The position numbers and the translations under genes are program-made. This document shows, piece by piece, positions 3,999-8,305 of a stretch of DNA of 64,000 nucleotides. The stretch is from Companilactobacillus alimentarius DSM 20249 (GTDB taxonomy: Bacteria > Bacillota > Bacilli > Lactobacillales > Lactobacillaceae). The notes under the pieces are model-generated. The model was not told where the DNA came from. It searched no databases and was given only the letters and a program-made list of their open reading frames with translations. The stretch is from positions 2,046,001 to 2,110,000 of the forward strand of contig NZ_CP018867.1 in the NCBI RefSeq assembly GCF_002849895.1, read 5' to 3'. The first letter of the stretch is position 1; every line of letters begins with the position of its first letter.

Positions 3999-5207
3999 TT
4001 AGTCGTAGCAATTTTCTAGGTCTAAAGTTGGTGCAGTTCTTTTTTCAAGACGCATTAGAAAACCAATTAAGATGATTCCAACGATTAGCATACCAATTCC
4101 TAACCAAGGTGTGTTAACTAATTGATTATGGGCCACTGCTTGTCCATCAAGGGCTGATCCTAAAGTGATTCCGACATTGAATGCTGAAATGTTCAAAGCG
4201 GAAGCTAATGGAACTTCGTCAGGGGTATATTTTTCAGCCAATTGAACTATATACAATTGAAGTCCGGGTACGTTCATGAGTGCAAAGAGTCCAAGTAATA
4301 AGACAGCCAATAAACCTAAGAAATGCAAATTAATAGTTAGGCGCATTACGATTAAAGCAATTCCTAATCCGATAAACATTTTCAAAAGGGCAAAGAGAGG
4401 TTTCTTGTTCGCCCATTTGCCACCAATAGTGTTACCAATAGCTACGGCTATTCCGTAGAAAATTAGGATAATAACAATGGCGCTTTGAGACCAGCCCATA
4501 TTCTTATTCAAAATTGTCGTCAAATAAGTATAAACTGGGAAAGTTGCCCCATATCCTAAGGCGGTCACTAATAAGATTAAGAGCAATTGAGGTTGTTTCA
4601 AGATTTTCCAGATACCCTTGACACTAGTTGGATTTGGCAAAGGCAATTTATTAGGTACTAAGAGCATGTTACTGATCAAACCAATTAATCCTAAAACGAT
4701 TAGGAAAATAAATGACATCCGCCAATTGAAAGTTTGTCCAATAAAAGTTCCAATTGGAACGCCAGCGATAGTAGCGACCGTTAAGCCAGTAAACATGATG
4801 GCAATAGCTGAACCACGTTTATTTGGAGTTACTACATTAGCAGCAATTAATGAAGCGATGGTCATAAAAATTCCATGTGACAGAGCGGTGATGATTCGGC
4901 CTGCCAAAAGGATTGTAAAGTTGGGCGCGAAGGTCGCCAATAAATTACCGATGATGAAGCTAATCATAATACCAATCAGTAATTTTTTGCGGTCAAAACG
5001 GTTGGTTACTAATGCTAGAATCGGAGCTCCAAAAATGATACCTGTGGCATAAATTGAAACTGTCAGTCCACCTTGTGTCAAAGAGATACCAAAGGTTTTG
5101 GTTAAAAGTGGGATGATTCCGACGCTGATAAATTCAGTTGATCCAATGGCAAAGGCACTGATTGCCAATGACAAGAGAATCCAAGTTGATGAGACTTTTT
5201 TGTTCAT
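3999..5207 (-). CDS. MFS transporter, DHA1 (drug/sugar exporter) family
   Basis: A 402-residue, 12-helix major facilitator protein. The start FAIGSTEFISVGIIPLL and the loop after helix 2 (NRFDRKKLLIG, the usual motif A) are typical of the AraJ/YdhP/PbuE branch of DHA1 exporters, which move drugs, sugars or purines outward. ATG at 5207 follows a strong GGAGGA site. It is transcribed from its own promoter together with the HxlR regulator gene downstream. HxlR-MFS pairs usually respond to the compound exported, often a quinone, aldehyde or antibiotic, but nothing here shows the substrate. Confidence 0.88.
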   Translation of the reverse strand: MNKKVSSTWILLSLAISAFAIGSTEFISVGIIPLLTKTFGISLTQGGLTVSIYATGIIFGAPILALVTNRFDRKKLLIGIMISFIIGNLLATFAPNFTILLAGRIITALSHGIFMTIASLIAANVVTPNKRGSAIAIMFTGLTVATIAGVPIGTFIGQTFNWRMSFIFLIVLGLIGLISNMLLVPNKLPLPNPTSVKGIWKILKQPQLLLILLVTALGYGATFPVYTYLTTILNKNMGWSQSAIVIILIFYGIAVAIGNTIGGKWANKKPLFALLKMFIGLGIALIVMRLTINLHFLGLLAVLLLGLFALMNVPGLQLYIVQLAEKYTPDEVPLASALNISAFNVGITLGSALDGQAVAHNQLVNTPWLGIGMLIVGIILIGFLMRLEKRTAPTLDLENCYD

Positions 5208-5239
5208 AATTTTTCCTCCTTGATTAATGCATGAGTATC

Positions 5240-5304
5240 ATTATATTGCGTTAGGAGAATTAAACAATTACGTACTTTAAAGTGCAGTAGGGACTAAAAA
5301 GTAC
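5240..5304 (-). promoter_or_regulatory. Promoter of the MFS-hxlR operon with candidate HxlR operator
   Basis: On the minus strand TTGTTT (5267-5262) and TATAAT (5245-5240), 16 bases apart, precede the transporter gene. Just upstream sits the imperfect palindrome GTACTTTAAAGTGC (5272-5285) and a further half-site AAAAAGTAC ending at 5304. Paired TAC/GTA half-sites are what HxlR proteins of the YodB type bind, so self-regulation is likely; binding itself is inferred. Confidence 0.55.
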
Positions 5305-5348
5305 CTATAAGGATTCTGTAAATAAATTAAAATAGTCTAATAAAATTA

Positions 5349-5377
5349 TTGACAGACTAATTATTGAATGTTTTACT
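5349..5377 (+). promoter_or_regulatory. Promoter of the Phe-leader/trpXYZ-like operon
   Basis: A perfect -35 TTGACA (5349-5354) is followed after 17 bases by TTTACT (5372-5377). Transcription would begin near 5384, about 30 bases before the leader peptide start. Confidence 0.6.
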
Positions 5378-5412
5378 AGAGAATGTAAATTGCAAACGAG
5401 GAGAACTTTATT

Positions 5413-5478
5413 ATGAAAATTAATAAACGGTTGTCACAGTTAAATAATCAATTTGCCTTTAGCTTTTTCTTTAGATAG
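5413..5478 (+). CDS. Phenylalanine-rich leader peptide (21 codons), candidate attenuation peptide
   Basis: A short frame, MKINKRLSQLNNQFAFSFFFR, opens at ATG 5413 with a good ribosome site (GAGGAG at 5399-5404, eight bases upstream) and a TTGACA promoter before it. Five of the last eight residues are Phe (codons 14, 16, 18, 19, 20), a pattern like the pheA leader peptide of E. coli. It ends at 5476-5478, exactly where the first arm of a set of alternative hairpins starts; an intrinsic terminator follows and then an ABC importer of the aromatic amino acid type. The arrangement fits ribosome-mediated attenuation by Phe-tRNA. That the frame is translated is inferred from the ribosome site and composition. 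Confidence 0.6.
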   Translation: MKINKRLSQLNNQFAFSFFFR

Positions 5479-5655
5479 CGTTTGTATTCAGTTGCTGGAT
5501 ACGAACGCGGACGTGTTCGTATCTATTGATTGGCTAAAGCTTTTAAATGTGTCGTTAAAGCCAGCGTAGATACAGGGTTAAATCTAGCTGGAGAAAATAT
5601 TTGGGCCCAAGTATAAAACCAGTTAGATTCGATCTGAATCTAGTTGGCTTTTTTT
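5478..5655 (+). promoter_or_regulatory. Leader RNA with mutually exclusive hairpins (candidate attenuator)
   Basis: Arm A (5478-5489) pairs with B (5497-5508) in 12 base pairs; B (5498-5508) pairs instead with C (5513-5523) in 11 base pairs around a 4-base loop, so A:B and B:C exclude each other. Further on, E (5561-5571) pairs with F (5582-5591), F also pairs with G (5619-5629), and G pairs with H (5636-5647) to make the terminator; E can also pair with H. A ribosome stalled on the Phe codons would cover A and change the folding. There is no T-box motif (AGGGTGGNACCGCG), so this is not a recognisable T-box. Pairings are read from the sequence; the switching is inferred. Confidence 0.55.
5619..5655 (+). 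terminator. Intrinsic terminator in the leader of the ABC operon
   Basis: CCAGTTAGATTC (5619-5630) pairs with GAATCTAGTTGG (5636-5647), 12 pairs with two G-U, loop GATCT, followed by CTTTTTTT. It lies 22 bases before the first structural gene, so it can only act as a conditional stop. Confidence 0.8.
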
Positions 5656-5676
5656 ATATTCTGGGAGGAAATATTT

Positions 5677-6642
5677 ATGAGAAAAATTCTAATTTCAATC
5701 ACCGCCATAATGGCAATTTTAGTTTTAACAAGTTGTTCCACCAATTCATCAGTGGACAAGAAAACATTAAATGTAGGAATCCTACAAATTGTGCCCCATG
5801 GTTCCTTAGATGCCGCTAGAAAGGGATTCAAAGAGGAATTGAATAAAGAGGTTAAGGAACATGATAAGTCGCTTAAAATCAATTACAACTATCAAAATGC
5901 TCAAGGCGATCAAGCAAATCTGAGTTCCATGTCACAACAATTAGTTCAAAAAAAAGACGATTTAATTCTAGGAATAGCCACTCCCGCAGCACAGGCGTTA
6001 GCTAAAAAAACTAATTCGACCCCAATTGTTGTGACAGCTGTAACCAACTTGCAGAGCGCAGGATTAGTCAAAGATGATAAAAAGCCACAGACCAATGTCA
6101 CAGGTACAAAGGATCTAGGTCCAGTCGACAAGCAAATAAAACTGTTGACTACTATGACAAAGAGCCAAAAACCTATTGGAGTTTTATATAATTCATCGGA
6201 AGAAAATTCCGTATTACAAGTCAAAATGGTTAAGAAGTATGCGAAGAATCATCATTTGAAATTGAATATCGTTAGTGTAACTAGTACCAATGATGTGGCT
6301 AGCGCTGTCTCAGGGATGGCTAAGAAAGTCTCAGGAATCTACTTGCCAACGGATAATTTGATGGCTAGTTCGATGAAGACCATTGGTAAAAAAGCGCGTG
6401 AAGCTAAGTTACCAGTCGTAACAGGTTCAATTGAAATGGCGGAAGATGGTGGAACGGCTACATATGGGATCAATTATCACGATTTAGGCAAGCAAACCGC
6501 TAAAATGGCTTATCAGATTTTGATTGAAAAAAAGAAGCCTCAAGATATGCCAGTTGAAACTTCACATACTTTAAGACTTTATATCAATAAAACTAATGCT
6601 AAAGCTATCGGAATCAACCCCGATAAAATTATGAAACCATAG
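5677..6642 (+). CDS. trpX: ABC transporter substrate-binding lipoprotein, TrpX-like
   Basis: A 321-residue solute-binding lipoprotein. The signal peptide ends in the lipobox LTSC, so Cys19 would be lipid-anchored outside the membrane. The mature part (VGILQIVPHGSLDAARKGF, later STPIVVTAVTNLQSAGL) is typical of the ABC.X4 / TrpX family with a periplasmic-binding type I fold, which in streptococci imports tryptophan or related aromatic compounds. ATG at 5677 follows GGGAGGA; a longer upstream frame would run through the terminator and is rejected. It is first of three genes with the permease and ATPase. The Phe-rich leader upstream suggests phenylalanine or a mix of aromatic amino acids as substrate; that is an inference. 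Confidence 0.85.
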   Translation: MRKILISITAIMAILVLTSCSTNSSVDKKTLNVGILQIVPHGSLDAARKGFKEELNKEVKEHDKSLKINYNYQNAQGDQANLSSMSQQLVQKKDDLILGIATPAAQALAKKTNSTPIVVTAVTNLQSAGLVKDDKKPQTNVTGTKDLGPVDKQIKLLTTMTKSQKPIGVLYNSSEENSVLQVKMVKKYAKNHHLKLNIVSVTSTNDVASAVSGMAKKVSGIYLPTDNLMASSMKTIGKKAREAKLPVVTGSIEMAEDGGTATYGINYHDLGKQTAKMAYQILIEKKKPQDMPVETSHTLRLYINKTNAKAIGINPDKIMKP

Positions 6643-6651
6643 GAGGAAAAT

Positions 6652-7602
6652 ATGCTGATATCTAGTTTAGGACAAGGATTATTATGGGCACCGTTAGCTA
6701 TTGGTGTTTTTATTACATTTAGAATTTTGGATATTCCTGATTTGACCACTGAAGGAAGTTTTCCCTTTGGCGCTGCTGTGACGGTTAGTTTGATGATCAA
6801 AGGCCAATCAGCTATCATAGCCACTTTGGCGGGATTTTTTGCAGGGTGTATTGCCGGATTAGTAACGGGAATATTGGATACGAAATTAAGAATTCCGTCA
6901 CTTCTAGCAGGAATTTTGACAATGACGGGTCTATATTCCATTAACATCCACATTATGGGCAAATCAAATGTTCCGTTATTGAGTCAAAAAATCTTAACAG
7001 AATATTTGCCAGCAGGTTTAGATGTCGACTTACAGACGATTGTTTTAGGGCTGATCGTAATTTTTATCGTCATAACACTACTCTTCGGACTCTTTAAAAC
7101 CCGTTTAGGATTATCTTTAATGGCTACAGGCAATAACAAGAATATGTCGGCTGCCAACGGAATTAATACCGATGGGATGATTATTTTCGGCTACGTTATC
7201 TCCAATGGCTTTATCGCTTTGTCAGGGGCTCTGATAGCGCAGAGTAATGGTTATGCCGATATTGGTATGGGTATTGGCACAATCGTTATTGGACTAGCCT
7301 CTGTCTTAGTCGGCGAAATTTTCCTACGTAGTCACAACATTTTGACTAGATTATTAGCCATGATCCTAGGAGCAATTATTTACCGATTATTATTAACTTT
7401 TGCGATGGGATTAGGTTTCCCGGCTGATGATCTCAAGATTTTATCGGCAATCATTTTAGTGATCGTAATCTGTGTTCCGATTATTCAGAATCGAATCAGA
7501 ACTAAACGAGAATTGAAAAAATATTTAATACAAGTGGAGGATCAAACTGATGGAAGTCTTACAACTAAAACATCTACAAAAAGTATTCTTTCCCGGGACT
7601 AA
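6652..7602 (+). CDS. trpY: ABC transporter permease, TrpY-like
   Basis: A 316-residue integral membrane permease with eight to nine hydrophobic segments of the BPD_transp_2 type (related to branched-chain amino acid and sugar permeases). The motif GLSLMATGNNKNMSAANGI in the middle resembles the loop that contacts the ATPase. It starts at ATG 6652 after AGGAGGA, nine bases beyond the binding-protein gene. Its 3' end overlaps the ATPase gene by 53 bases, giving a hydrophilic tail (DQTDGSLTTKTSTKSILSRD) that looks unconserved; the protein may have gained this tail by a late stop change. Works with the neighbouring lipoprotein and ATPase as one importer. Confidence 0.85.
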   Translation: MLISSLGQGLLWAPLAIGVFITFRILDIPDLTTEGSFPFGAAVTVSLMIKGQSAIIATLAGFFAGCIAGLVTGILDTKLRIPSLLAGILTMTGLYSINIHIMGKSNVPLLSQKILTEYLPAGLDVDLQTIVLGLIVIFIVITLLFGLFKTRLGLSLMATGNNKNMSAANGINTDGMIIFGYVISNGFIALSGALIAQSNGYADIGMGIGTIVIGLASVLVGEIFLRSHNILTRLLAMILGAIIYRLLLTFAMGLGFPADDLKILSAIILVIVICVPIIQNRIRTKRELKKYLIQVEDQTDGSLTTKTSTKSILSRD

Positions 7603-8305
7603 CAATGAGCGTCACGTTTTAAAAAATATTAATCTCAAAATCAACGATGGTGACTTTATTTCAGTTATCGGCAACAATGGGGCGGGTAAGTCTACATTAT
7701 TGAATACAATTGCTGGTAATTTGCATGTTGACGCTGGTGAAATTGATTTAGTTGATCATGATGTCACAAAAAAATCAATTGCTTACCGTGCACGTTGGAT
7801 GTCACGAGTCTTTCAAGATCCTAAAACGGGAACGGCAGGAGATTTAACTGTTTTGCAGAACCTGGTACTTGCCCAGAGTCATACCCAAACAATCAGTTTA
7901 CATTGGTATCAAAAAAAGACTGATCGAAAATCTTTCAGTCAATTATTAAAAGCTTTAAATATGGGCTTAGAAAATTTTTTAGACACACAAGTAAAATATT
8001 TATCCGGAGGTCAACGACAAGCACTGTCACTTTTAATGGCTACTTTGAGTAAACCTAAATTGTTATTATTAGATGAACATACAGCGGCGCTTGATCCGAA
8101 AACTAGTCAAGAAGTAATGACAATTACTGAAAAAATCGTTCAGGAACAACATTTGACTACGATGATGATCACACACAAAATGTCTGATGCTTTAAAGTAT
8201 GGCAATCGCTTAATAATGGTTCAGGACGGTCAGATTAAGCTGGATATTAGTGGGAAGCAAAAGGCAACTTTAAAGAAGGAAGACTTGTTAAAAGCGTTTA
8301 AATAA
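7550..8305 (+). CDS. trpZ: ABC transporter ATP-binding protein, TrpZ-like
   Basis: A 251-residue ABC ATPase with Walker A GNNGAGKST, signature LSGGQRQ and Walker B LLLLDEHTAAL, where the usual Glu-Pro is Glu-His as in other members of this subfamily. It starts at ATG 7550 after GTGGAGG, within the last 53 bases of the permease gene, which suggests coupled translation. It would power uptake through the TrpY-like permease. The 3' end overlaps the convergent membrane-protein gene by eight bases, so no separate terminator is seen between the two. Confidence 0.88.
   Translation: MEVLQLKHLQKVFFPGTNNERHVLKNINLKINDGDFISVIGNNGAGKSTLLNTIAGNLHVDAGEIDLVDHDVTKKSIAYRARWMSRVFQDPKTGTAGDLTVLQNLVLAQSHTQTISLHWYQKKTDRKSFSQLLKALNMGLENFLDTQVKYLSGGQRQALSLLMATLSKPKLLLLDEHTAALDPKTSQEVMTITEKIVQEQHLTTMMITHKMSDALKYGNRLIMVQDGQIKLDISGKQKATLKKEDLLKAFK

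Follow-up and report, generated by a model that had tools for sequence, protein, structure and literature searches.

A leader RNA rich in phenylalanine codons most likely lets a lactobacillus respond to phenylalanine shortage by turning on an amino acid importer. The leader occupies positions 5349-5680 of the window (the 64,000-nucleotide stretch of Companilactobacillus alimentarius DNA analyzed here) and is followed by the genes of an ABC importer. It is very probable that this importer is controlled by ribosome-mediated transcription attenuation via charged tRNA-Phe, for which we infer ribosome stalling, tRNA-Phe as the signal, the direction of the response and Phe as the main substrate.

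Architecture of the leader

The promoter, the ribosome site, the Phe-rich 21-codon open reading frame (ORF) and the pairings A:B, B:C, E:F, F:G and G:H were all found where a first-pass annotation of this DNA had described them (Table 1). The promoter aligns in those relatives whose sequence slice reaches that far and is absent from the list of a consensus promoter scan. Phe is encoded by codons 14, 16, 18, 19 and 20 of the leader peptide MKINKRLSQLNNQFAFSFFFR, i.e. by five of its last eight codons. The stem of the G:H terminator comprises 11/11 base pairs according to the pair check and 13 bp according to the terminator scan.

The pair check of the window revealed two pairings beyond this first description, that of L1 with C/D, in which the leader strands are CUUUAGC and UAGAUA, and that of C/D with E. 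L1:C/D and C/D:E join both halves of the leader into a single chain that runs from the ribosome to the terminator and in which each helix excludes the next. The folding z-scores are −6.12 for 5374-5660 and −6.60 for 5476-5660, and none of 200 shuffles folded equally well. At the sequence level, the leader thus displays (i) an ORF with a ribosome site and clustered regulatory codons and (ii) mutually exclusive pairings that include an intrinsic terminator, as expected of an attenuator.

The ORFs listed for the permease and the ATPase share 53 nt (7550-7602), and the ATPase may start later.

Table 1 Elements of the leader, the importer genes that follow it and the second leader of the same genome. 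Numbers are window positions unless a contig or locus is named.
Feature	Coordinates	Strand	Details
Promoter	5349..5377	+	−35 TTGACA 5349-5354, weak −10 TTTACT 5372-5377, spacer 17 nt
Shine-Dalgarno GAGGAGA of leader ORF	5398..5404	+	sequence
Leader ORF MKINKRLSQLNNQFAFSFFFR	5413..5478	+	ATG 5413, TAG 5476-5478, 21 codons
L1, leader codons pairing with C/D	5457..5477	+	5457-5464:5532-5539 8/8 bp; 5472-5477:5520-5525 6/6 bp
Segment A, partner B	5478..5489	+	12/12 bp; first base is the final base of the stop codon
Segment B, partner A or C	5497..5508	+	pair check and covariation
Segment C, partner B	5512..5523	+	11/11 bp
Segment C/D, partner L1 or E	5520..5539	+	12/12 bp with E
Segment E, partner C/D or F	5559..5572	+	pair check and covariation
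Segment F, partner E or G	5581..5591	+	E:F 10/10 bp, F:G 11/11 bp
Intrinsic terminator	5619..5655	+	G 5619-5629, H 5637-5647, T7 5649-5655
Substrate-binding protein, TrpX-like paralogue	5677..6642	+	324.8 bits to NF041285, cut-off 390
ABC permease	6652..7602	+	ORF list and profile search
ABC ATPase	7550..8305	+	true start may lie within the listed ORF
Second leader-peptide attenuator, Trp type, before TrpX	G000:C1:1644595-1644823 = L227:1161-1389		

Relation to known RNA families

The same genome carries 20 T-box matches at E ≤ 0.001, five of them over the cut-off and none at the window leader. Those in front of pheS, tyrS and trpS stay below the cut-off of 93 bits (79.4, 82.7 and 49.2 bits) and lend some color to the idea that a T-box or a metabolite riboswitch acts at the leader as well. 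A covariance scan of 5200-5720 at E ≤ 5, which included the T-box model RF00230 as the first-pass annotation had suggested, returned no match to either, and the conserved core of the leader is a coding frame; this reading has next to no chance of being right. The Rfam Phe-leader had no match in the cmscan of 5200-5720 either, and the other Rfam families contributed just a sub-threshold match to RF02863 and a weak antisense match to RF02960.

The RF02863 match (sRNA_2410) spans the model end to end (1-196) with an E value of 5e-5, and its score of 39.3 bits lies below the gathering score of 61. The kinship of the window leader with RF02863 therefore rests on an alignment of 81 leaders (A2) and on a covariance model (R1) built with the window among these 81 rows, both described below. 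Rfam types sRNA_2410 as an sRNA gene, which we read here as a leader. In Enterococcus faecium, RNA-seq and Northern blot showed it as two transcripts, and the main text of that report contains neither "leader" nor "attenuat" (PMC5593968). These transcripts could be taken at face value, with the name sRNA_2410 being correct and the leader region constituting an independent, trans-acting regulator. A terminated leader would resemble a short RNA just as well, however, and the leader ORF, the terminator and the type of downstream gene are all conserved, which makes an independent small RNA very improbable. The leader RNA could conceivably have a trans role in addition to attenuation.

Conservation and the wider leader family

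A search for related loci, chosen through the importer, yielded 18 loci, all in Companilactobacillus, or 19 with the window. The tail QFAFSFFFR and the stop codon are kept in 19/19 of these orthologous loci (18 by sequence slices; the L055 slice began inside the ORF, and its tail was read from the alignment), which means that the Phe tail was not lost in relatives that keep the importer. In L055 (Companilactobacillus mindensis), several tandem copies of a ~60-nt repeat lie between the terminator and the importer, with the leader intact upstream.

RF02863 had matches at E ≤ 0.01 in at least 162 of the 295 Lactobacillales genomes sampled, at least 71 of them above the cut-off, given the strict filters of this search, and leaders from many other genera score above the RF02863 cut-off. 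The mechanism, which the first-pass annotation had regarded as unusual in a lactobacillus, is therefore anything but rare, if these related leaders work alike. For closer reading, 110 RF02863 matches (30 + 80 loci) were picked to spread over genera and, combined with the 19 Companilactobacillus loci, gave a set of 129.

A fast whole-genome RF02863 search of the C. alimentarius genome gave no matches and missed the window site. As RF02863 misses this site, we built R1, which matched one site in this genome, 32/36 genomes of the genus and 87/201 genomes of the family. In the phylum sample, it matched 4/398 genomes: this one, two further genomes from the order, and G837, which belongs to another class. 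The family and phylum samples were searched with stricter filters. Reading 40 of the R1 matches listed for genus and family, mostly weaker ones, extended the set to 169 loci (129 + 40), of which all except L126 contain a leader ORF (168/169). Trp leaders have a shorter chain in which E:F is the terminator itself. The locus in G837 (L152) is a minimal element with the leader MNYINNFNLKIQIFFNNHFR and E:F as the terminator; by eye, the protein downstream of it looks like a transporter of the sodium-coupled neurotransmitter-symporter type.

Covariation of the alternative helices

From the 129 loci, we retained 81 leaders less than 90% alike as alignment A2. An unsupervised search of A2 for paired columns ranked B:C, L1:C/D, A:B and C/D:E at the top. 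In the structure composed of L1:C/D and A:B, 95.4% of cells are paired and 16/28 pairs show double-sided changes; the two L1:C/D helices reach 94.4% and 98.1%, and A:B reaches 94.8% with double-sided changes in 8/12 pairs. The combination of A:B and C/D:E has 93.0% of cells paired and double-sided changes in 11/24 pairs, with 92.7% and 89.1% for C/D:E. The corresponding values for B:C plus E:F are 85.3% and 13/23 pairs, where B:C alone pairs in 91.8% of cells and E:F alone in 76.7%; the inner columns of E:F pair poorly in A2. Sliding the pairing partner lowers the fraction of paired cells to 24-52%.

For each of these three structures, none of 500 shuffles, which ignore kinship, attained an equally high covariation score; for B:C plus E:F, one shuffle in 500 reached the observed count of doubly changed pairs. 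The compensatory changes that the first-pass annotation had proposed to look for are thus present, as the helices covary in 81 non-redundant leaders.

A script detected the terminator hairpin in 80/81 leaders (weakly in L092 and L127); it missed the terminator of the window, which a separate terminator scan found. In the 80 leaders other than the window, F:G formed with a leader's own G has −11.7 kcal/mol compared to −8.0 kcal/mol with the G of others (Wilcoxon p 1e-11, indicative for such related sequences).

Leader codons serve as codons and as a pairing strand

The L1 bases appear to be selected as codons beyond their role in pairing. With the frame fixed, Phe, Tyr and Trp account for 54.5% of tail residues in the leader frame versus 6.2% and 14.5% in the other two frames of the 81 leaders. 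This test served as a control for a contrast over the last nine residues (52.7% versus 3.4% elsewhere), which is biased as the script took the frame richest in Phe, Tyr and Trp. The leader frame is free of stops in 81/81 leaders, and the two edge codons of the paired core encode an aromatic residue in 73/81 and 75/81 of them, with TTT, TTC, TAT and TAC all in use.

Codon changes are often answered in the pairing partner, as in L075 (CTACAGC/GCTGTGG) and L096 (TTATAGT/ACTATAA). L1:C/D is not kept universally: in L070, TTTAGC has become TATAGC with no answering change in C/D. In one group of leaders, by our own reading, the C/D partner matches the switched base in 4/4 Phe leaders and in 6/10 Tyr leaders; in the remaining 4/10 Tyr leaders, an A stands opposite a C at this base.

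Leader type and downstream gene

Comparison with five seed proteins identified the nearest recognized gene at each of the 129 loci as an ABC importer in 95 cases and as aroE/DAHP synthase in 34. This breaks down into 93 TrpX-like binding proteins, 31 loci with aroE followed by DAHP synthase, three with DAHP synthase, one with a permease-ATPase pair, and L143, the first gene of which encodes a family 3 binding protein of another ABC system according to Pfam. The gene starts at most 700 nt away in 128/129 loci. Leaving aside the 19 Companilactobacillus loci, which were chosen by their importer, the count is 74 + 31 + 3 + 1 + 1 = 110. The genes of the 40 further loci were named by eye; Pfam was used for ten examples, L143 included.

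These 40 loci share the layout of the others but combine it with different leader peptides and genes. TrpX-like proteins have the leaders NRWQSR and RQFWQSQH, and a class I/II aminotransferase has SFYFWYFR. An MFS transporter with a fused type II chorismate mutase domain (L165:522-1967) has YYFDFAYFK as its leader, a 2-hydroxyacid dehydrogenase has NYLYFRLFC, a transketolase NTYYYYWFFK, an amino acid permease YAFAFSLFG and aroE YYYYWFMK. At L166:1632-1870, a T-box (123 bits) lies directly downstream of a 2-hydroxyacid dehydrogenase gene that has an aromatic leader. Small look-alike proteins follow the leaders FFGFANFR (and variants), NFGFSSFR and KFSFSNFS at L155-L159, L173 and L182. The 176-aa protein of L155 (leader FFGFANFR) has no match in Pfam, NCBIfam or the PDB sequences; our impression is that it resembles prephenate dehydratase.

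The C. alimentarius genome itself contains two leader types. Its second PF04392 protein, which passes the TrpX cut-off with 448.1 bits, is preceded by the Trp-type leader MTKTYSLNIANIRWQSR, with its ATG at G000:C1:1644595. Only one match of R1 in this genome has E ≤ 0.1, so that the model misses the Trp leader, which became apparent on inspection of the sequence before the second PF04392 protein. In this genome, TrpX thus stands behind a Trp leader and the window importer behind a Phe leader. Prephenate dehydratase and type I DAHP synthase have no match in it, although 14/14 and 11/14 control genomes, respectively, were positive; import of Phe is therefore probably needed.

The scores of the binding proteins against the TrpX equivalog model NF041285 follow the leader type. 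Five of the six proteins behind Trp leaders were tested, and all five pass the cut-off of 390 (452.7, 451.9, 439.9, 454.4 and 448.1 bits), the value of 454.4 belonging to one half of a fused ORF in L154. Nine of the 99 proteins behind Phe/Tyr leaders were tested, and none passes: the window protein has 324.8 bits and the others 345.2, 338.2, 331.9, 302.3, 372.7, 327.7, 311.0 and 325.1 bits. At L154:1707-3146, two TrpX-like binding domains are apparently fused in one ORF behind the Trp leader QRTWQNWRR.

The five Trp-leader proteins cluster together (100/99) in a tree of 104 binding proteins, in a part where the program warns of long branches, and the proteins with the Phe-only leaders QFAFSFFFR/EFAFSFFFR form a group of 21 rows (100/100). 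The solved structures closest to the window protein are 3lft, 6hni and 3lkv, which we take to be Trp-, Tyr- and Phe-bound members, respectively. The substrate of the importer, which the leader was proposed to name, is narrowed, short of proof: the score excludes curated TrpX, and Phe is likely.

Tyr-only and Phe-only leaders, e.g. YYYGYYG and FFFGFFR, precede importer paralogues within each of eight genomes (G377, G164, G442, G478, G461, G440, G095 and G338), among which G478/G461, G440/G095 and G377/G164 are close relatives. The two leaders are ~1.35-1.9 kb apart in seven of the genomes and far apart in G338. A Tyr-richer and a Phe-richer leader occur in G222, G418, G330, G396, G354, G375 and G040. 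On the tree of one group of 20 proteins, the leader type changes twice compared to about seven times when shuffled (0/500), a contrast to which near-copies contribute.

Codon identity thus tracks the downstream gene (Trp, Tyr or Phe paralogue), as sensing of charged tRNA predicts, and, judged from sequence, regulatory codons across the family agree with the substrate or the pathway of the gene under control. Attenuation by Phe-tRNA, as put forward in the first-pass annotation, is supported by (i) the absence of a T-box, (ii) the Phe tail in 19/19 orthologues and (iii) the way in which the codons follow the paralogue.

The tail FAFSFFFR could also stall the ribosome by itself, perhaps with free Phe as a co-effector, in the manner of TnaC. 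The tail is nearly invariant within clades, and Ser and Arg are present in 80/81 and 81/81 leaders of A2, as such a nascent-peptide arrest would have it. The same bases pair with C/D, however, and this dual coding accounts for the invariance. Moreover, the leaders exchange one aromatic residue for another (Phe, Tyr or Trp) according to the downstream gene (FFFGFFR, YYYGYYG, NRWQSR), which an arrest motif should not tolerate, and both Ser and Arg are substituted in several leaders beyond A2. We consider arrest by the nascent peptide improbable and continue with sensing of charged tRNA-Phe.

A model of the switch

We propose the following logic for the leader. When Phe is scarce, the ribosome would stall at the Phe codons and cover L1, upon which A:B would form and leave C/D free for E. 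Formation of C/D:E would in turn free F for G, G:H would be blocked, and the importer would be transcribed. When Phe is plentiful, the ribosome would reach the stop codon and cover A, so that B:C, E:F and G:H could form and transcription would end. Upon release of the ribosome, L1 may re-pair with C/D, which would also favor E:F; computation backs this step in part.

Position-dependent folding of a transcript ending at 5600 gives A:B together with C/D:E at 0.86-0.96 when codons 12-15 are in the A site, and B:C at 0.99-1.00 together with E:F at 0.87-0.95 from codon 19 to the stop. At codons 16-18, C/D:E amounts to 0.19, 0.16 and 0.55 for the transcript end 5600, which is not clearly antiterminating, and to 0.80, 0.93 and 0.95 for the end 5612, which is. 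This outcome shifts with the assumed ribosome footprint. With no ribosome, E:F and C/D:E are at 0.61 and 0.33 for the end 5600 and at 0.34 and 0.61 for the end 5612. The energies of fixed states favor the antiterminator in the stalled condition (−36.4 versus −32.6) and the terminator otherwise (−35.5 versus −27.9).

Equilibrium folding of the full-length leader gives F:G at 0.99 for every ribosome position and does not by itself reproduce the on/off logic. Termination therefore requires that E:F persist kinetically, which is plausible given a computed barrier of 11.6 kcal/mol for the transition from E:F to F:G.

A probable aromatic regulon of Lactobacillales

Considering the family as a whole, we think it likely that Lactobacillales possess an order-wide aromatic regulon that operates by leader-peptide attenuation beside T-boxes. 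It would employ one homologous RNA architecture in which the codons are set to Phe, Tyr, Trp or mixtures of these and a codon switch is often answered in the pairing partner. The leader would thereby reveal the substrate or pathway of its targets, namely importers, aroE/DAHP synthase, aminotransferases, transketolases, 2-hydroxyacid dehydrogenases and MFS transporters (one with a chorismate mutase fusion). The terminated transcript of this architecture would be the orphan sRNA_2410. If so, an RNA family that is catalogued without a function and matched in 162/295 sampled Lactobacillales genomes would be explained, Lactobacillales would gain a large peptide-based counterpart of T-boxes for aromatic amino acids, and the Phe/Tyr/Trp codon code would predict the substrates of many importers that look TrpX-like. 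The couples of Phe-only and Tyr-only leaders within a genome constitute a natural experiment in which the regulatory codon and its RNA partner change jointly.

Comparison with known systems

Enterobacteria offer the classical case of ribosome-mediated attenuation by Phe leaders (pheL/pheA, pheST). The window leader shares with these systems a Phe-rich leader peptide, mutually exclusive hairpins and an intrinsic terminator; unlike them, it has a longer pairing chain, codons that pair with C/D and an importer as its target. TnaC, too, is a leader peptide with an aromatic amino acid as its signal, as proposed here for the window leader; it acts by stalling through a fixed nascent peptide plus free Trp.

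In Streptococcus suis, the homologous importer trpXYZ is likewise attenuated at the level of transcription in response to an aromatic amino acid, there by a Trp T-box (PMC9382623). The tRNA binds the RNA of this T-box directly, and the passages of PMC9382623 that concern it describe no leader peptide. A search of the open-access literature, with subscription papers outside its scope, found no description of the present leader family. The closest published case that we found is the uORFC-13-1 motif, a predicted Phe uORF and terminator upstream of aroF in Acholeplasma, with 24 representatives given there from Acholeplasma and environmental sequences only (PMC8632094). Compared by its description in that source, uORFC-13-1 shares with the present family a Phe uORF and a terminator before DAHP synthase. 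The principle is thus known; the RNA family, the clade, the targets and the codons that double as a pairing strand are new.
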